Origin: Planctomycetota bacterium
Lineage (GTDB): Bacteria; Planctomycetota; UBA11346
Reading direction: 5' to 3'
Assembly (NCBI GenBank): GCA_028280785.1
Contig: JANQLF010000045.1
Span: forward strand, 1 to 53,931
DNA: 53,931 bases
Notes under the pieces: model-generated
What the model saw: only the letters and a program-made list of their open reading frames with translations
What the model was told of the DNA's origin: nothing
The model's database searches: none
Position numbers and translations under genes: made by a program
Shown here: positions 26,462 through 39,757 of the stretch, piece after piece
Numbering within the stretch: the first letter of the stretch is position 1
Layout: every line of letters starts with the position of its first letter

Positions 26462-26534
26462 TATAATGTGAGCTAGAAACATGTTGCAGAAACAAGATGC
26501 AACAGTGTGCACCATGCACAGGGGGCCCGATGCC
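26462..26534 (+). promoter_or_regulatory. Probable -10 box and structured leader of the secreted-protein gene
   Basis: TATAAT at 26462-26467 is a candidate -10 element; no convincing -35 element is seen. Downstream of it are two small hairpins: TGTTGCA (26482-26488) with TGCAACA (26498-26504), and TGTGCA (26506-26511) with TGCACA (26515-26520). A G-rich stretch then leads to the ATG at 26535. Confidence 0.4.
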
Positions 26535-27995
26535 ATGCTTTTACGTATGTGGATATTGATTTTTACGTCAGTGATCAGTTTAGGTGCTGCTACTTCGATT
26601 AGCCAATACGGTATCACTTGGACCTTTGATAAAGACTACGAAATTGGTCAATACTGCAGTGGTGATTACTGGGTGAAAGGTCCGGTGACGATCATTTCTA
26701 TTGAGAATGATTGGCATACACACGGTTTGTTGCCAGAAGAGGGTCACGACGGATCGATGCTGAATCCCAATGCAGCAGGTAGGCAGGGCTATGATAAGCG
26801 ACTGAAAAATTACGATGCCAAACTCAACATATCCTATCGCAACGGCAAAAAAATCTCAGTAGACAATCCATTGCTTGTTGAAAATAATTCAACGCTGCTG
26901 TCGAGTATTAGTTGGTTATGTAAATCTGATAAAGAAAAGGAGCCAGGCTGCCCGCGTGTTAATGGTGGAACGAAAGCGCCGCGACCGGTCCTGCGCGATA
27001 TAGCTGTCTTAACTGTTGTTGCTGAGATACCTGAAGAAGGGAGTTTCCGTCCAGCTTATTGTGCTGAAGATAAATCTGTGAAATTTAATGTGAAGCAACT
27101 TAAGAAAGAATTATTGTTAAAACTTAAGGCACCGGATTCTGCACCAAAGCTCAGCGACTTAGCTAAGCGCGTTCAGCGTCCGTGGATTGACCATGTCCAT
27201 CAATATTTAGGCGCGATGACCCATCCCACTAACAATATGCCAGAGTATGGGCGTGAAGTGAGTACCTTAATTGGGGTTATGGGTTTAGCGTTGCATCTAG
27301 ATGTGCCTATGACTGAAAAAGAAAAATTATTAATTGGTTATGTGCAGCTTGGCATTGATCTCGCCGGTATCGCTGATGCAGGTGGTTCTTGGCCGTCAAA
27401 TGGTGGTCATCTTATGGGGCGCAAGTGGCCCATTCTATTTGCTGGTTTATTGCTCGATGACAAACATATGAAAAATGTCGGACAATGGAAAACCGGCTTC
27501 CAGGAAGATTTAGATACCTTTTATGTGAGCCAAGCAGATATTGATATGACGCATAGTGCCAAATGGAAGCCAGATAAACGTGCACAAAAATTACCTTATG
27601 AAAAAGAACATCTTGGTTTGCCCGAATGGGGTATTCGTCATGTGAAAGATCCGTGGGCAGATAATTTACATTGGTCGGCAACCTATCGCAGTATTAATCA
27701 ACAGTCTTATCCTGGCTTTGTTTTGTGTGCGCATTTGATGGGGCAACGTAAGGCCTGGAACCACGAACCCTTGTTCGATTTTATAGATCGTTCAATACAT
27801 TTTGGTGCACATAACAACGGCCCAGGCACCAAGCGCTATGCTATTTATACATTTGGTGGAAAATTCATTCATGATATGTGGAAGATGTATCGATCGCAGT
27901 ATGGATGCGTGTGGAATCCAGCAAAAGAGGATGTTTACAGCACTGGTGCCTTGCATTGTGATGACTGTAAATTTCACTGTACGAAAAAAGAATAG
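26535..27995 (+). CDS. Secreted protein of unknown function (QYGITW family member 1)
   Basis: The product is 486 residues. I start it at ATG 26535, which follows a G-rich ribosome binding region and gives a signal peptide (MLLRMWILIFTSVISLGAA). The mature protein begins SISQYGITWTF, with a beta domain to about residue 190 (GDYWVKGPVTI, GSMLNPNAAG), then a helical domain with RKWPILFAGLLLDD and WNHEPLFDFIDR. These motifs recur in the gene at 37838-39757, so the two are paralogues. The helical part looks like an (alpha/alpha) toroid, so a polysaccharide-binding or lyase role is plausible, but I recognise no catalytic motif. The next gene starts 3 nt after the stop. Confidence 0.75.
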   Translation: MLLRMWILIFTSVISLGAATSISQYGITWTFDKDYEIGQYCSGDYWVKGPVTIISIENDWHTHGLLPEEGHDGSMLNPNAAGRQGYDKRLKNYDAKLNISYRNGKKISVDNPLLVENNSTLLSSISWLCKSDKEKEPGCPRVNGGTKAPRPVLRDIAVLTVVAEIPEEGSFRPAYCAEDKSVKFNVKQLKKELLLKLKAPDSAPKLSDLAKRVQRPWIDHVHQYLGAMTHPTNNMPEYGREVSTLIGVMGLALHLDVPMTEKEKLLIGYVQLGIDLAGIADAGGSWPSNGGHLMGRKWPILFAGLLLDDKHMKNVGQWKTGFQEDLDTFYVSQADIDMTHSAKWKPDKRAQKLPYEKEHLGLPEWGIRHVKDPWADNLHWSATYRSINQQSYPGFVLCAHLMGQRKAWNHEPLFDFIDRSIHFGAHNNGPGTKRYAIYTFGGKFIHDMWKMYRSQYGCVWNPAKEDVYSTGALHCDDCKFHCTKKE

Positions 27996-30335: not shown

Positions 30336-30446
30336 CGCTAAGTCATGCAAGAGACGGCACTTGAGTTCCAGTCACAAATCCTATCGCGCCCCATTTAACT
30401 AGTGAAGTAACACGGGTTATCAACTTTACACTAGGTGGGCGCATCA

Positions 30447-33407
30447 ATGAGTGACGAGCAGGTAGCGACAAATGAATCTGCCGGCATCAAGCAGCATTTG
30501 GTCAGACATGGCTTGTTGTTTTTCATCATTATTTCCGCCGTCATTCATTTGACCGGTATCTCCCCAGCCATCATCGAACGACTGATCCCCGAAGAAAAAC
30601 CGGTACAAATGAGCGAGGCTGAATTAGCGGCCTTGGCTGCTGAAAAGGCTAAACAAGAACAGCTGCAAATAATGCAGATGAAAAAGCAGACCTTACGTGA
30701 GCAAATGGAAGACAGTTTTAAATCAATTGCCGAAGGTGTTGAGGAAGAAGTTGTTGAAGAGGTTTGGGATAAAGTCGAAGTTAAAATTGATGAACGTTTT
30801 GATCGACTCGAAGACATGATGAATCAAGAAGAGTATGATTTAGAAGCCTTCTCTGATGATTACATGGATGCATCGGCTAGCATGTTTGAAGAAACTGCTG
30901 ATATATTAAAAAGTATTTTACGCGAAGAGTTGGTCGCAACGATGGTTAAGCAGATTAAAAAAGAAACCAATCCCAAAATGGCGAAACAAATGGAGAAGCG
31001 CTTTGAGGAGTATCAAGGCAAGCGCGAATCCGATCGTTTAACCGCTGCGGCGAAACGAGATACTAAGCGTAGGCGTGACGCAGCAAAAAAAGAAGTGGAA
31101 AAGTTAAAGAGCGATACGGCTCGTTTGGCTAAAGAGCAAGAGCAGTTAACGCAATTAGAAAAAAATCCCAATGCGAAAAAAGAACAAGTCGCTAAAAAGC
31201 AGGGAGCACTTAATAAAAAGTCTGAGTCAATTGAAAAACGACTAGAGGCAGTCAAAAAGGAAATAGCCGAGACCACACCGGATGTTGCCGAGCGGAATAA
31301 AGATAAACTTGAAACCGACGCGCTAAAAAAGGCTCAGGATAAGCAGAAGCAATCACTTGATGAACTAACTAAAAAAGAGTCAGCGCAAAAACCAATGCAG
31401 GAAGCAACGCAGGCTTTGAAAGAGCTGGCAAAAGATTTAAGCGATCTCAGTAAAGATATGCATAAGGGCGAAGCTATAGATGAAATCGCTAAGGCAGCGA
31501 TGAAGAAAATCATTGAAGAGCAGTTAAAGAAGAAGACGCAAGACAACTTTGATAAGGAACTCAAGGATTCCCTGGTGCCAGAAAGCACCAAGCGTCTGGT
31601 TGAAGAGTCAAAGCGCTATCTTGATGACTATAAAATGGATAAGGATGCTGAGTTGTTGGCAAAACTACAAGAAGAAGTTGCCAAGGAGTTAGCAGAAGGA
31701 TTGCCAGAAGCGATGAAGGACAGTGCGGCCGATTTAATTGCGAAGCAAGCCGAGCAAAAACATAAACTCGATGATGTCAAAAAATCAGAGTCAGAGGCAG
31801 TTAAAAAATCAGCTCAAGCTATGAGTGGCGAATTAAATCGTCAGGACAAGCAGCGAAAGGGCGAGACGGCGGCGACAGTCAAAGCAGTGGCACGTTCAGC
31901 TAAATTAGGCGACATGACTGAAGCGATGAATGAATTGAAAGCGAAGTTGGACATGATGATGAAAGCAGAATCGATGGCCAGTGCGCTGCGTGAAGGTCGT
32001 GGCGATATGGGTGAGCTGGGTGAAATGATGTCGATGATGGAAATGATGGACGGTGGTAGCGGTAGTGGGTCTTTGCCGCCGGGGATGAGTGTGCCTTTTA
32101 GTTTACCTATTCCTGGTAAAGGCGGCCCATTTAACGCGAAATCATTTCAAGAAATGCTCGAATTATCACGCGCACGTCAAAACCCCGAAGCCGTCTACGA
32201 AGATATTCAGCGACGTGCCAAAGAATTGGTTTCGATGGGTGATGCGTTCCCAGAAAAACGTAGCGTCGTCATAATTGATCCACGCAAGCAAGAAGAAGAG
32301 TCGGAAGTGGCAGAGAAAGAAGAGCGCAAGTTGGCTGAACCGAAGTTCAAGCCAATTAAGTTTGGCTTTGCTACTATGGTTCGTGATGACATTACATTAG
32401 ACGGTGATTTAAGCGATTGGGATTTAGATCGTGGCATGCTTGGGCAAATGACCAAAGGCAAGGGCGCAGCTGATATTACCTTACCTGAAGATAAGGCGGT
32501 TAAATTTTATTTAAAGTGGAGTCATAAAGGATTTTATTTAGCAGCTGAAATGCCTGATCCAATAAAAACGCCACCGCCGAATACACCAAAATTGTGGAAT
32601 GGTGACTGTGTCGAGATCTGGTTGGATACCGCCAATCGACGTGGTTTGGAAATGAATTATTGGGAAGCTATTCACTGTTTTGCTGCTCCGTATGGAAGCA
32701 TCGCAGAACCAAATATTGTCAGTTCCTTTGGTCATGGTTGGGCCATGCGCAATATGCCGAATTCAAATGGGAAATTTGATCGCAATACCAAAACTGGTAT
32801 TCAATTAGGCCATAAGAAAACCGCGACGGGTTATAATATTGAGATATTTATTCCACAGTTACTACTCAAAGGCCCAAAATTTGCTGCCGGTAAATACTTG
32901 AGTTTCCATGTCTCTTTCAATGGTTTTGAGGGTAAAAATATTTCATGGGTTAAACGCGTCAGTGGTGACTTCCACCGACCCGACCAATGGGGTGATATTA
33001 TTTTATTAGGTTCAGATGCAGAAGTGACCTTTTGTAAGGACAGCGAAGGTGAAGAAGCATTGGACATCTTCGTCCCAGGTGAGCCGGTGCATGTGCGTGT
33101 TTCGGATCCTGACATGAATATTGACCCACGTTTTGAAGATCAAATTGCCGTTAATGTCATTGGTGCTGGTGGTCATGCACAAATGTTAGTGCTTGGGGAA
33201 ACTGAAAAAGACAGTGGTACCTTTGTCGGTGGTTTGAATACCCATTCAGCGTACATCGGTTTGAAAAAGGATTCATTGCCGGTTGTGCCGGGTCAGTTTA
33301 TTCGAGCCATTTATATTGATCAGCGTCGTGGTTATGGTGAGTTGAATGAACGCCTTGAGCACGATCTGCATGCCAGTTGGCCTACCTTACGTCTCAGTAA
33401 AAACTAA
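30447..33407 (+). CDS. Membrane-anchored coiled-coil protein with CBM9-type carbohydrate-binding domain
   Basis: The product is 986 residues from ATG 30447 (AGGTGGG 8 nt upstream; an in-frame GTG lies at 30435). One transmembrane helix (about 21-43) is followed by ~480 residues rich in Lys, Glu, Ala and Gln with heptad-like patterns, i.e. a long coiled coil. A Met/Gly-rich linker (about 525-560) leads to a CBM9-like domain (about 637-850; DITLDGDLSDWD, WNGDCVEIWLDT). A final beta domain (about 855-986; VRVSDPDMNIDP, ETEKDSGTFVGG) ends the protein. It is followed 18 nt later by exbB and exbD, which take the place where tonB or tolA would stand. I infer a periplasm-spanning protein driven by ExbBD and contacting glycans. 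Confidence 0.8.
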   Translation: MSDEQVATNESAGIKQHLVRHGLLFFIIISAVIHLTGISPAIIERLIPEEKPVQMSEAELAALAAEKAKQEQLQIMQMKKQTLREQMEDSFKSIAEGVEEEVVEEVWDKVEVKIDERFDRLEDMMNQEEYDLEAFSDDYMDASASMFEETADILKSILREELVATMVKQIKKETNPKMAKQMEKRFEEYQGKRESDRLTAAAKRDTKRRRDAAKKEVEKLKSDTARLAKEQEQLTQLEKNPNAKKEQVAKKQGALNKKSESIEKRLEAVKKEIAETTPDVAERNKDKLETDALKKAQDKQKQSLDELTKKESAQKPMQEATQALKELAKDLSDLSKDMHKGEAIDEIAKAAMKKIIEEQLKKKTQDNFDKELKDSLVPESTKRLVEESKRYLDDYKMDKDAELLAKLQEEVAKELAEGLPEAMKDSAADLIAKQAEQKHKLDDVKKSESEAVKKSAQAMSGELNRQDKQRKGETAATVKAVARSAKLGDMTEAMNELKAKLDMMMKAESMASALREGRGDMGELGEMMSMMEMMDGGSGSGSLPPGMSVPFSLPIPGKGGPFNAKSFQEMLELSRARQNPEAVYEDIQRRAKELVSMGDAFPEKRSVVIIDPRKQEEESEVAEKEERKLAEPKFKPIKFGFATMVRDDITLDGDLSDWDLDRGMLGQMTKGKGAADITLPEDKAVKFYLKWSHKGFYLAAEMPDPIKTPPPNTPKLWNGDCVEIWLDTANRRGLEMNYWEAIHCFAAPYGSIAEPNIVSSFGHGWAMRNMPNSNGKFDRNTKTGIQLGHKKTATGYNIEIFIPQLLLKGPKFAAGKYLSFHVSFNGFEGKNISWVKRVSGDFHRPDQWGDIILLGSDAEVTFCKDSEGEEALDIFVPGEPVHVRVSDPDMNIDPRFEDQIAVNVIGAGGHAQMLVLGETEKDSGTFVGGLNTHSAYIGLKKDSLPVVPGQFIRAIYIDQRRGYGELNERLEHDLHASWPTLRLSKN

Positions 33408-33425
33408 TTAAAGGATACGAACGCA

Positions 33426-34106
33426 ATGTCTATTTTTATTGATAAGATTTTCGAAGCTGGTGGTAGTATGGTGCCCCTGGCAATTTGCTCAGTGGTGAGC
33501 ATTGCCGTAATTATCGAGCGAGCCGTTCATCTTAAAAAGAAAAATGTCATTGAGGATGATCTCATTAAAGCAGTCAGTGAACACGTGAAAAAGGGTGACT
33601 ATGACGCCGCACGTAAGACAGGCGCTGCTTCACCGACGATATTTGGAACTATTGTCGATAAAGGCATTGAAGTTCACGAAATTGAGGGCAGCGATTTAGA
33701 CACTGCCTTGACAGAAACCAGCTCACGTGAATTACCACAGTTAGAAAAGTTTTTGAATGTGTTGGCCTTAATTGGCAGCATCGCACCGTTGCTCGGTCTA
33801 TTCGGTACTGTTTATGGCATGATTTTATCATTTGATGAAATTGCCAAAGAGAGTGTTGATAAGGAATTAATGGCCAAGGGTATTTCGGTGGCATTGATTA
33901 CCACGGGAACGGGTTTGCTCATCGCTATTCCGGCAATTATTGCTAATAATTATTTCCGTGGTCGCGTTGATTATTTTTATCGTGAAGTTGAAGAGGGTAT
34001 TTTGCAAATTATGCGGGCTTTTCATGTCGCTCATAAAAGCGACGACGAAGAGCCTGAAGAGTCCGATGCCGGTGAGGGCGATGTAGAGGCAGGAGCCCCG
34101 GCGTGA
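33426..34106 (+). CDS. exbB: ExbB/TolQ/MotA-family proton channel protein
   Basis: The product is 226 residues. AAAGGA lies 10 nt before the ATG. Three transmembrane helices are visible (about 13-30, 105-130, 150-172). The second and third have the family signature: [19 protein letters not shown] and [22 protein letters not shown]. This is the proton-channel subunit that energises TonB-, TolA- or Agl-type partners together with ExbD. The C-terminus is unusually acidic ([16 protein letters not shown]). It overlaps the exbD start by 4 nt. The symbol denotes the family; TolQ-type function is possible. Confidence 0.9.
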
Positions 34107-34543
34107 GTAAAATTCAACGCAAGTCCGGGCATGCGGTTCAAGGCGCTGATTTAACGCCGATGATCGACGTGGTGTTTTTGCTCTTAGTATTTTTCATGGT
34201 GGCAACGAATTTTGTCGAAGAGACCCAGCAGTTTAATGTTGAATTGCCTAAGGCTGAGGAAGCTGAGACGGTGAAGGAAGAGCAGACGCTGTCCGTTGTT
34301 GTGCACAAGTTCGATCAAGAGGTCCCAGCAGACGAGCGTGTTATATTTCGCGTCAATCAAGAAGAGACCAAACGCGCAGATCTGTTTAATGATATAAAAA
34401 AAGTAGTAGATAGTATAAAAGATTTAAAGTCAGTCGTTATTAAGGCAGACAAAAATGCACGCTACCAAGATATTATTTCCGTGATAAGCTGTCTCAATGC
34501 TTTGGAGGTCGAGAATTTCAACCTCGCTGTCATGGGGAATTAA
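34103..34543 (+). CDS. exbD: ExbD/TolR-family biopolymer transport protein
   Basis: The product is 146 residues, starting at a GTG that overlaps the exbB stop. After a short cytoplasmic tail a single transmembrane helix begins with [19 protein letters not shown], where Asp22 is the conserved proton-carrying residue. The periplasmic part ends with [20 protein letters not shown], the usual ExbD/TolR pattern. It works with ExbB to convert proton flow into force on a partner, here probably the coiled-coil/CBM9 protein. The next gene starts 3 nt later. Confidence 0.9.
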
Positions 34544-34546
34544 AAC

Positions 34547-36319
34547 ATGCGTTATTTTTGTATGCTTACGTTGTTATGTTGGGTTATGAACATGACGGCG
34601 GCCGAAGTCTATTATATTGATTTTGAAAAGGGTTCAGACAGTAATATTGGAACCTCAGCGAAGAAGCCATTTAAACGAGCACCCGGTGATCCCAAGGCCG
34701 AAGCTAATGCGGCAGCCGTAAAATTACAAGCTGGCGATAAGGTATTATTCAAGGGCGGTGTAACGTATAACGGAACCATAGTCATTACCGCTGTTGGTAC
34801 TAAAGAGGCGCCAGTTATTTTTGACGGTAATTCAGATGAGTCCTACGGTAAGGGTCAAGCTATACTCGATGGGTCTCAGCGCGTAGTGAAATGGGAGAAA
34901 TGCAAAAGTGCTGATGACTGTCATGGGAACAGTAATTTTAAAAATATTTGGAAGGCAAGCTTGCCTGCCGGTATTAAAGCCTGGGAAGCGGGTTTATTAC
35001 AGGATGATCAAAATTTAGCCTTATCGCAATACCCAACGCCATCCGATTTTAATTTTAACGATGCGCATCGTGAATTTGTGCAAACAACCGGGACTCAACT
35101 GAAGATTAATGCGGCAACACATCCAATCTTAAAGGAGCTTGGCGGTAAGGATTTAGTCGGTGCGTATATTCAAGCTTTCCGTTCGACTAATCGTGTCGAT
35201 GCGCGTAAAATTAAAGCTTGGGATGAGAAGACGGGCACCGTCTCTTTCGATAAGTTAGGAACTAAGCCGTATAAAAACAAAGGTGCGATTGCCATTACCA
35301 ATAGTATGCACAGCAAAGTCTTCGACCATCCGGGTGAATATGTAGTGATGGAAGACGAAAAAGAGCCGACGGTTTATTTGTGGCCGTTGGATGGCAAGGA
35401 TCCGAACAAAGTGAACGTTATTTGTGCAGTTGAAGATACCTGCCTGCTTATTAAAGCGAAGACCCAGTATATCCACGTGAAAGGTTTTAATATAAAAAAT
35501 TATCGTGTGGCCATGACCAATTATGTAAAAGGTCACTGGAATAATGACGCAGATCGCAGCCATGGATTATATGTGGCGAATAATCTTATCGAACGCATTC
35601 GTCAACGCAGCTATGGTACTGCTTGTTATTTCATTCAACTGCAGGATGCGGTGTTTGAGAATAATGAGCTGATCAATTTCTTTAAACAACGTGGCATTGG
35701 ACTGCACACTGTGTGGAATTGTTCAATTCGTAATAATCGATTGGATACCGTTGGTCGTACACCGATTATTTACTATATGGGTTACGACAGTGAAATTGTT
35801 GGCAATCGCGTTTCAAATTGCACGGGTGTGCATAGTAACGGCATGTCGATTTACGTGAATAGTAGAAACATGTTAGTTGCCGATAATGTGGTCTGGAATA
35901 GTAATGTTCCTTTTACCTGTAATGAGACCGAAGGATTAACGGTACGTAATAATGTTTTCCACACCAAGGGAGCTCAACCCATCGCTTTTTGGCAAGGAGT
36001 TTTTGGTGATGTGTTAGTTGAGAATAATATTCTCATTGGATCAAATAAAAAATCTGGATTTACGATCGGCGGTCTTGGCGATAAGACCGGTAAAACCTTC
36101 GCTAAGATGAAGGTCACGATCAAAAATAATATTATGGATGGCCCACTGATTCAGGTCATGACCGGTAAACCGTGGTCCAAGAACGTAACAGTAGATGGCA
36201 ACATCTATCTGGTAGATCGAGACGACTATGTCTTGGGTGAAAATGAACGCGTTGAGACCGATTTGAAGAAGCTGGTCTCTGGGGTTGAGGACAACACTTA
36301 CAAGCGCCTAGTCCCATAA
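34547..36319 (+). CDS. Secreted right-handed beta-helix protein (polysaccharide-lyase-like)
   Basis: The product is 590 residues. A signal peptide (ending NMTAA) is followed by a DUF1565-like start (YYIDFEKGSDSNIGTSAKKPF), typical of exported parallel beta-helix proteins. From about residue 290 the coils are evident: repeated N-rich rungs such as VENNILIGSN, VFENNELINFF, IRNNRLD and VADNVVWNSNV. Such helices occur in pectate, alginate and chondroitin lyases and in GH28-type hydrolases. I cannot assign catalytic residues. It is packed 3 nt behind exbD and so probably belongs to the same transcript. Confidence 0.82.
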   Translation: MRYFCMLTLLCWVMNMTAAEVYYIDFEKGSDSNIGTSAKKPFKRAPGDPKAEANAAAVKLQAGDKVLFKGGVTYNGTIVITAVGTKEAPVIFDGNSDESYGKGQAILDGSQRVVKWEKCKSADDCHGNSNFKNIWKASLPAGIKAWEAGLLQDDQNLALSQYPTPSDFNFNDAHREFVQTTGTQLKINAATHPILKELGGKDLVGAYIQAFRSTNRVDARKIKAWDEKTGTVSFDKLGTKPYKNKGAIAITNSMHSKVFDHPGEYVVMEDEKEPTVYLWPLDGKDPNKVNVICAVEDTCLLIKAKTQYIHVKGFNIKNYRVAMTNYVKGHWNNDADRSHGLYVANNLIERIRQRSYGTACYFIQLQDAVFENNELINFFKQRGIGLHTVWNCSIRNNRLDTVGRTPIIYYMGYDSEIVGNRVSNCTGVHSNGMSIYVNSRNMLVADNVVWNSNVPFTCNETEGLTVRNNVFHTKGAQPIAFWQGVFGDVLVENNILIGSNKKSGFTIGGLGDKTGKTFAKMKVTIKNNIMDGPLIQVMTGKPWSKNVTVDGNIYLVDRDDYVLGENERVETDLKKLVSGVEDNTYKRLVP

Positions 36320-37837: not shown

Positions 37838-39757
37838 ATGAAATATACATTAATTGTAGTTTTGCTGCTCATAGGCCATGCTTTATCTGCGGCTGTGCCA
37901 ATGACTATCTACACTGAGAACAATGCACCAGAAGCACCAGCGTTAAAAGATTTACCACTGCAGGACACCGTTACGCAGTATGGAATTACCTGGTACTTTA
38001 AGCAGCCAGTTCGTGTGGGAACGTTTGTAAATGGTGATTTCTATGTTGTTGGCCCATGTACTGTTGAGAAGCTGGATCCGAAACCGCAAACAGGCTCCCA
38101 AGTGCGCCATGGCTCTATGTTAAATCCAGCGCCTCGGCAGGAAGTCGCTTTTGATAGTGGTGTACGCAATTGGTACCGCAAAAGTGGTCTTGCTCAGTTA
38201 CCGATATCAATGAAGCCGGGTGATGTACTTATCTCGAGCATTAGTTTAAAAGAGGGTGAAAATGCCCAATTTCAATACCATTCCTCAGGTAAACGCGGTG
38301 TGCATGATAATTGTCCTACTAAAGTGGCGGCAGTACTGTGTTGCGTTGCTAAGCCATTGCCGGCAGATGCCTTTCGACCCGCTTATGGCGACAAAACACA
38401 AAGCATTTATTTGGCCCGCCATTTAAAGCGCCATTTATTGCCAAAGATTAAACGTGTTGGCAGCATTCCGGACCCAGTGCATTTTTCCAATGTCTTTCAA
38501 AAGCCGTGGTTAAACTTTGGTTTTTTTGGTTTTGATCAACCAATGGAGAACATGCCACATTATGGACAGTGGGTTGGACAAAGTGTCGGTAATGCAGCAC
38601 TCATGCTGTGTTTGGATTTTACCCCGCAGCAAAAAGAACGTTTATTAGTAAATTTCATTCAAGTTGGTATTGATTACTGGGGTTTAGTAAAAAATGGACA
38701 TCCGGGATGGCAAGGATGGGGCGGTCATGGTAGCGGTCGTAAATTACCAATAGTTTTCGCCGGACATTTACTTGGTGATGCCAAAATGGCTGCGCCAACA
38801 AAAGTATTTCCGCAGGTAGAATTCGGCGAAGATAATCAGACGCGTTATGGTGATTGCTGGACTGGTGCCAAAGTTGTCTTCGCCGGTCATTCTGGTGTTA
38901 GCTCTAAAACCGGCGAAGCGCCACGTTCAAAATGGGGACCTTACGAGCATAAGCATCCAAAAGAGTGGAAGAATGCTAGTGATCAAAAGAATATGCAAAG
39001 TGAAGCGTATCGTCGCGCAAACACGAGTTGTGCTTGGGTAGCTCAGGCTTTAGCGCTGCGTTTTTTACTCCTAGAAGATAATTGGAACCATGAGCCATTT
39101 TTTGATTATGTCGATAGGTGGATGTTTGAAGATGATGAAGAGCATCGCAGGCAAATTAATATGTATTTTCCTGATCCTAATTTAGTTAATCCGAGTAAAA
39201 CCTGGTGTCATCAAGGACATCCGGGAGATCGTTGGGTTGGACCCTTATGGAAAACATATCGAACAGCACCAGGAATGCCTGAAACCAATGGGTGGCAAAT
39301 TGGTGAGCGAAAAATTGAACGGATTAAACCTCAGGAAAAGGCACAAAAAAAGAAGCGGGCTCGAAAATCTTCGAAAAAGAAAGCAAAACAGTCGACGAAA
39401 ATTTACACACAGTGGGACGAAGAATTAATTAAGCAGGTAATTGCAGCTCAAGCAAGCGGCAAGCAATTACATTTTCAATGTTCCTTGCTCAAAGGTGAGA
39501 CCAAAGTTGCAGGAGCAACGGCGAAGACGATTAAAGTACAAACCAAACAAATGGCTTTACCATTGCCATGGAAACGGCTGAGTCTCGGAGACAAGGCCTC
39601 ACTAGCTGAGGCACTCGCCAAGGAATTATCTGATGAGGAGCTCAACCATGCGCTTGCAGGTGTCTACCTCAAAGGCACCGGCGATGTGGTGAAGGCGAGT
39701 AAGTATCTGGCCAAGGCAAGCAGCTACCGGCTTAAAATTCAGCAAACTTTTGACTGA
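37838..39757 (+). CDS. Secreted protein of unknown function (QYGITW family member 2) with Lys-rich C-terminal extension
   Basis: The product is 639 residues with a signal peptide (ending ALSAA). It is a paralogue of the product of 26535-27995: TQYGITWYF, NGDFYVVGPCTV, GSMLNPAPRQ, RKLPIVFAGHLLGD and WNHEPFFDYVDR line up in order. Compared with that copy it has an extra ~150 residues: a strongly basic linker (KKKRARKSSKKKAKQ, about 505-520) and a C-terminal domain with alternating charged helices (KLSDEELNHAL-type pattern). The basic linker may attach to sulfated or acidic polysaccharide or to the cell surface, which is speculation. It starts 16 nt after the preceding gene. Confidence 0.74.
   Translation: MKYTLIVVLLLIGHALSAAVPMTIYTENNAPEAPALKDLPLQDTVTQYGITWYFKQPVRVGTFVNGDFYVVGPCTVEKLDPKPQTGSQVRHGSMLNPAPRQEVAFDSGVRNWYRKSGLAQLPISMKPGDVLISSISLKEGENAQFQYHSSGKRGVHDNCPTKVAAVLCCVAKPLPADAFRPAYGDKTQSIYLARHLKRHLLPKIKRVGSIPDPVHFSNVFQKPWLNFGFFGFDQPMENMPHYGQWVGQSVGNAALMLCLDFTPQQKERLLVNFIQVGIDYWGLVKNGHPGWQGWGGHGSGRKLPIVFAGHLLGDAKMAAPTKVFPQVEFGEDNQTRYGDCWTGAKVVFAGHSGVSSKTGEAPRSKWGPYEHKHPKEWKNASDQKNMQSEAYRRANTSCAWVAQALALRFLLLEDNWNHEPFFDYVDRWMFEDDEEHRRQINMYFPDPNLVNPSKTWCHQGHPGDRWVGPLWKTYRTAPGMPETNGWQIGERKIERIKPQEKAQKKKRARKSSKKKAKQSTKIYTQWDEELIKQVIAAQASGKQLHFQCSLLKGETKVAGATAKTIKVQTKQMALPLPWKRLSLGDKASLAEALAKELSDEELNHALAGVYLKGTGDVVKASKYLAKASSYRLKIQQTFD

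Follow-up and report, generated by a model that had tools for sequence, protein, structure and literature searches.

We estimate at roughly one half the probability that a 986-residue protein encoded in the window (the whole 53,931-nucleotide stretch of DNA that was analysed) is a partner of an ExbB/ExbD motor, which docks through a Ser-x3-His signature in its membrane helix and transmits motor force through a tip composed of a CBM9-type and an Ig-like domain, likely onto a sugar-chain end. Open reading frames and Pfam searches confirmed the layout proposed in a sequence-only reading of this DNA, in which the 986-residue protein (hereafter the giant) is followed by exbB, exbD and, 3 nt further on, a gene for a beta-helix protein (Table 1). 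The beta-helix gene is predicted to share a transcript with exbD, which appears likely; promoter-like and terminator-like sites showed no excess over shuffled sequences. The possibility that the beta-helix gene is a fixed part of the cassette was rejected, since it is absent behind exbD in two relatives (L061 and L062) and this neighbour is thus not conserved. The cassette is flanked by a GH20 gene, a DUF5107-TPR gene and two proteins without a Pfam match (26481-27995 and 37838-39757) that have an N-terminal stretch in common (QYGITW.F ... GD.....GP), by appearance a carbohydrate cluster.

Table 1. Features of the cassette at 30447-36319 (positions in the window)
Feature	Position	Strand	Details
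Giant CDS	30447 (ATG)-33407	+	986 aa; 990 aa from an alternative GTG start at 30435
N-terminal membrane helix, giant	30510..30572	+	Ser30-x3-His34; codons 30534-30536 and 30546-30548
Predicted helical stalk, giant	30615..32048	+	residues 57-534; from AlphaFold model and composition
CBM9-type domain, giant	32358..33011	+	
Trp717, giant	32595..32597	+	aligns with Trp71, a clamp residue in T. maritima CBM9-2
Phe842, giant	32970..32972	+	aligns with Trp175, a clamp residue in T. maritima CBM9-2
C-terminal Ig-like domain, S-layer type, giant	33009..33395	+	DPDMN ... GETxxDSGxFxG motif
exbB	33426-34106	+	226 aa; starts 18 nt after the end of the giant gene; PF01618, 1.1e-30
exbD	34103-34543	+	146 aa; PF02472, 2.2e-24; GTG start overlaps exbB stop
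ExbD Asp22 codon	34166-34168	+	aligns with TolR Asp23
Beta-helix protein gene	34547-36319	+	PF13229, 8e-9; 3 nt behind exbD

CBM9_1 (PF06452; 1.4e-7, above the family cut-off) was the sole Pfam family in the giant at E values up to 0.01. In a full-length AlphaFold model, an N-terminal helix covers residues 13-36 and helices extend over most of residues 57-534, and 42% of the residues in 50-534 are charged. The mean pLDDT of this model was 58.3; ten-residue means were mostly 65-92 in the stalk, and outside it the model was weak, with values below 50 across the membrane helix and through most of the C-terminal half. Modelled separately, the C-terminal end consists of a CBM9 domain, a fold recovered by Pfam, profile and model, and of an Ig-like last domain of the Nitrosopumilus S-layer type, as judged by profile and fold. 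The models and composition thus bear out the earlier description of an N-terminal membrane helix, a helical stalk of ~480 residues and a CBM9 domain; the Ig-like second domain of the tip had been missed. A search of a viral fold library produced no useful match. Pfam found neither a TonB C-terminal domain (a search with PF03544 matched contig C143 of the same genome, not the window's contig C202) nor a TolA-type end nor a von Willebrand A (vWA) domain in the giant. That it is a plain TonB or TolA was ruled out, as no C-terminal domain of either kind was found.

TonB and TolA dock on ExbB and TolQ through the SHLS motif, Ser-x3-His-x6-Leu-x3-Ser (PMC12215075, available sections). The membrane helix of the giant carries the Ser-His half of this motif, and neither Ser30 nor His34 varies between the window and its five orthologues (37-55% identity). 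The full SHLS spacing was absent, residues His+7 and His+11 being Ala41 and Arg45, and this misplacement of the Leu and Ser counts against the motor-partner role. The family as assembled here has 29 members: 22 detected with a profile of the C-terminal end, two found via ExbB (L061, L062) and five from whole-protein searches (P0002-P0004, P0125, P0126). In five of these (L034, L045, L046, L049, L050) the N-terminus lies off the contig; it is readable in the remaining 24, and 22 of these carry Ser-x3-His in the helix. The signature was present at 15 of the 17 readable places detected with the C-terminal profile (the window, L033, L041, L044, L047, L048, L052 and L158-L165, the giants of L158 and L165 each being split over two frames) and in 7/7 relatives from the whole-protein or ExbB searches. 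It was absent in L035 and L051, whose cassettes contain a second exbD and one more gene; these two likewise speak against the motor-partner role, and their giants perhaps couple in a different way. At these two loci the CBM9 giants without the signature (L035, 12399-15764; L051, 5175-8849) stand beside a protein of 865-867 aa, with a weak Laminin_G_3 match in L035.

Against the 22/24 in the family, Ser-x3-His was present in 4 of 99 proteins in a comparison set from the fetched loci, each with an N-terminal hydrophobic helix and none within 300 nt of exbB/exbD; of the proteins with such a helix that do stand next to exbB/exbD, 15 of 28 had it (Fisher p = 7.8e-9). Two of these four carriers were the vWA transducer of C53 and the giant of L160, itself a member of the CBM9 family. 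An earlier, cruder motif count had given 9/87, with seven of the nine being exbB-cassette proteins other than ExbB.

The motor proteins retain key motor residues. Ser22, Thr128, Thr160 and Pro169 of ExbB were invariant in 23/23 close ExbB rows and align with TolQ Ser28, the pore threonines and the TM3 proline, the roles of which are described in the available sections of PMC12215075. The pore Thr and TM3 Pro are thus present in the MotA_ExbB domain, ExbD has its membrane Asp (Asp22), and among solved structures the best match of the ExbB profile was TolQ. The position of TolQ Trp32 is Ile in the window's ExbB and Ile, Leu or Val across the ExbB group; in E. coli, this TM1 Trp of ExbB/TolQ, like the TM1 Ser that is kept here, touches the Ser-His pair of TonB/TolA, and its replacement is a further point against the motor-partner role. 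In an ExbB tree of 33 rows, several deep branches of which are weak and some rows long, the 18 signature-bearing CBM9-cassette rows needed 2 changes, compared to a mean of 11.2 after shuffling (0/500 as low). By their sequences, the ExbBs of CBM9 cassettes cluster. At L044 (2-1100, minus strand), a single open frame runs through exbB and exbD with no intervening stop, perhaps an ExbB-ExbD fusion.

We determined how widespread the giant is by applying the C-terminal (CBM9 + Ig) profile to 392 phylum genomes. The family counts are lower bounds, because scoring was limited to five candidates in each genome. At least 43 of the 392 genomes matched at E values up to 1e-12, and the two-domain end was found at at least 22 places in at least 15 genomes at 295 bits or more, the next match being at 118 bits. 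These places and the relative in Cerasicoccus maritimus ruled out that the giant is an oddity of the window. At 18 of the 22 places exbB and exbD stood beside the giant. Three more (G018:C33, G002:C228, G011:C248) had an empty downstream side, and as their contigs begin inside the giant the upstream side is not visible. The remaining place, L160 on G145:C97, had no exbBD within the 15 kb fetched and kept Ser-x3-His. An occurrence of the coiled-coil protein without exbBD, named beforehand as evidence against the pairing, was therefore seen at one of 19 testable places and exbBD at the other 18; we count L160 against the proposed role.

Conservation of gene order, a check named in the sequence-only reading, was found in part. 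The order giant-exbB-exbD occurred at 7 of the 18 places (the window, C182, C246, G008, G012, G020 and G145:C30) and in C. maritimus NBRC 105382 (L061) and an uncultured Verrucomicrobia MAG (L062), two loci that were found via ExbB and so are no independent proof that giant and exbBD are co-located; elsewhere the order was exbB-exbD-giant (9/18) or exbB-exbD-exbD-X-giant (2/18). The expectation of a length-conserved coiled coil failed, as complete ORFs range from 934 to 1503 aa. Among the weaker profile matches (single domains, at most 118 bits), 12 stretches were examined. None of four CBM9-only proteins (L043, L174, L175, L176; frames of 1133-1191 aa) was near exbB and none had the motif. 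Longer proteins with only the Ig domain lay beside exbB in five of eight loci (L167, L168, L169, L171, L177), all five without the motif, and hence the Ig domain is not special to the CBM9 arm. These five proteins, of ~2500-2890 aa with a signal-like N-terminus, are followed at 0-0.6 kb by exbB and two exbD genes and possibly belong to another motor-linked system without a Ser-x3-His helix; that of L169 has TPRs and F5/8 domains, and the loci lacking this exbB setting are L170, L172 and L173. A contig scan with the giant itself as query returned no relative, and one with an ExbB alignment, for which the best 80 of 574 confirmed stretches were considered, included two close orthologues. Whole-protein searches, in which only the top word-sharing candidates were scored, yielded four matches for the giant (one the window's own) and six for a six-row alignment; P0126, a MAG protein named sugar-binding protein at its source, was the only Planctomycetota relative among the candidates scored.

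The window's genome has its own TonB. The statement that neither a TonB C-terminal domain nor a TonB-dependent receptor accompanies the cassette holds for contig C202, on which no TonB_C and no Plug match was found; the one TonB_C protein of the genome is encoded on C143, where two exbB-type genes and an exbD immediately precede it. In C. maritimus, two TonB_C proteins (C6, C23) are next to exbB genes and the CBM9 cassette is on C3. We regard it as very improbable that giant and motor are loose neighbours, the giant being a passive envelope tether and its exbBD serving the genome's TonB: the TonB_C protein, four Plug matches (C208, C252, C281, C285) and the interchangeability of Ton and Tol motors in E. 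coli (PMC12215075, available sections) would allow it, but exbBD stands beside the giant at 18/19 testable places, 22/24 members have Ser-x3-His, CBM9-cassette ExbBs group together, and TonB, which has its own exbBD, is not the missing partner. The signature, the recurrent exbBD neighbourhood and the separate exbBD of TonB thus support the earlier suggestion that the giant, instead of TonB, is the partner of this ExbBD.

The same genome contains 12 MotA_ExbB matches, at least five CBM9-family members and a vWA protein with Ser-x3-His (L037, the cassette on C53). Two further proteins without a Pfam family stand beside exbB/exbD in it, both with an N-terminal membrane helix, which has Ser-x3-His in one (L042, 2656-4998; 780 aa) and lacks it in the other (L039, 5236-7140; 634 aa). 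Its only TonB_C protein (L038, 9526-10158) has Ala-x3-Asn at the usual Ser-x3-His site; in E. coli TonB, Asn is reportedly a replacement of His20.

We also analyzed whether the tip has the residues for sugar binding. The clamp of CBM9 consists of two aromatics (Trp71 and Trp175 in T. maritima) and prefers reducing ends (PMC8280721, available sections). The first clamp position was aromatic in 27/27 aligned members. The second was aromatic in 14/27, including Phe842 in the window and Trp in the five orthologues, so that both positions are aromatic in these six; in the other 13, mainly exbB-first cassettes, it was Ser, Gln or Ala, which weighs against the proposed role, as does the lack of conservation of the beta-helix gene. 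Thus, judged from the aligned residues, sugar binding by the tip is plausible in the window's lineage and doubtful in about half of the wider family. In the Ig-like domain, the key Asp and Glu residues were shared by 27/27, and through this domain the tip may bind protein. Carbohydrate-active neighbours lend weak support to a sugar role: GH20 and beta-helix genes in the window, 4 of 10 neighbours scanned in other cassettes (SASA, pectate-lyase-like, GH95 and AXE1, with GH95 belonging to L160, the cassette without exbBD), and an alginate-lyase/heparinase-like gene 1.3 kb downstream of the CBM9 cassette in C. maritimus. The CBM9 fold, the clamp kept in the window's lineage and some of these neighbours together suggest an action on glycans. 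No outer-membrane partner of the giant was found, a further point against the proposed role.

The arm could instead be part of a Tol-like envelope machine, still motor-driven but gripping protein or peptidoglycan at its tip, by means of either an altered CBM9 surface or the S-layer-type Ig domain, so as to fasten or constrict the outer membrane rather than to act on sugar. We consider this unlikely, if a serious contender. Consistent with it, E. coli TolA likewise has a helical stalk, 13/27 members have a non-aromatic residue at the second clamp position while the key Ig residues are the same throughout, and TolB_N was not found in the window's genome (89.7% complete). However, one genome has at least five paralogues, four of them in single-exbD cassettes, which fits specialised substrates better than one housekeeping task, and strong matches in only 15/392 phylum genomes (at most five candidates per genome scored) do not indicate a core function; the sugar-active neighbours also disagree with it. 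Among the ten window proteins searched with Pfam, no tolB or pal was seen in a tolQ-tolR-tolA-tolB-pal setting, and the three OmpA matches of the genome are not on C202. The S-layer-type domain at the tip would also suit a motor for surface movement, an arm driving an S-layer or slime layer as is thought for GldLM and AglRQS in gliding, and related 5:2 motors do power gliding in other bacteria (PMC9389320, available sections); by its expected topology the tip would be periplasmic, not on the surface, and we hold this to be quite improbable.

Returning to the ExbBD partner with a sugar-directed tip, the gene layout, the domains, the signature and its conservation, the exbBD neighbourhood, the kept motor residues and the separate TonB-exbBD are observed, and the following steps are proposed on them. 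The TonB/TolA-type Ser-x3-His of the membrane helix would be the giant's docking site for ExbB; the helical stalk of ~480 residues may span the periplasm; and motor force would reach, likely, the end of a sugar chain through the CBM9 tip and the S-layer-type Ig domain. Such a force route across the envelope would need no TonB. It may serve to capture or take up polysaccharide, a task that would also require a partner in the outer membrane. A stronger version, which we find rather doubtful, is a third ExbBD machine beside Ton and Tol, a proton-driven puller whose CBM9 domain grips chain ends and draws polysaccharide into the periplasm. If true, this puller would explain the uptake of whole polysaccharides by PVC bacteria that stops when the proton gradient collapses. 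In Gemmata obscuriglobus, dextran was taken up in 23% of 1,065 cells and gathered in the periplasm, and with CCCP in 0/816 cells (PMC5394234, available sections); this behaviour would be compatible with an arm that is driven by protons and grips sugar at its tip, the genes having been read from non-Gemmata genomes. The cassettes give named genes for testing whole-polysaccharide entry into the PVC periplasm, and a CBM9-tipped transducer, if true, would mean that the ExbBD motor has tasks beyond those already known.

The textbook roles of ExbBD and TolQR are those in the Ton and Tol systems. With TonB-ExbBD the cassette shares an ExbB/ExbD-family motor and an N-terminal membrane helix with Ser-x3-His; in contrast to TonB, the giant lacks a TonB_C end and has a predicted ~480-residue stalk and a CBM9 + Ig end, with no Plug on the contig. 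The long helical middle, the Ser-x3-His helix and an ExbB profile closest to TolQ resemble TolA-TolQR (Tol-Pal), whereas Pfam detects no TolA-type end in the giant, the neighbours scanned include neither tolB nor pal, and there are several paralogues per genome. CBM9 domains of T. maritima Xyn10A and C. kristjanssonii CkXyn10C-GE15A are parts of xylanases, but here the domain sits on a membrane-anchored motor partner. The C-terminal domain is like the Ig-like domains of the Nitrosopumilus maritimus S-layer in profile and fold; unlike that archaeal surface lattice, it follows a CBM9 domain in a bacterial protein. Also close are the vWA-ended transducers with SHLS helices that Williams-Jones et al. 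(2025; PMC12204202, available sections) describe from bacteria including PVC members, which share an SHLS-type helix, an end that is neither TonB nor TolA, tolQ/tolR-like neighbours and PVC hosts, and differ from the giant in their vWA fold, their disordered linker of ~100 residues and, in PVC, often paired tolR-like genes and a TPR gene. The available sections of that paper state that more such transducer systems are still to be discovered, and a CBM9 type with a long helical stalk is absent from its section 8; our literature search, outside which most subscription journals lay, found no paper on a CBM9-type transducer. Thus, non-TonB transducers with vWA ends are already in print, and a CBM9-tipped one would add a further type of end to this known kind.
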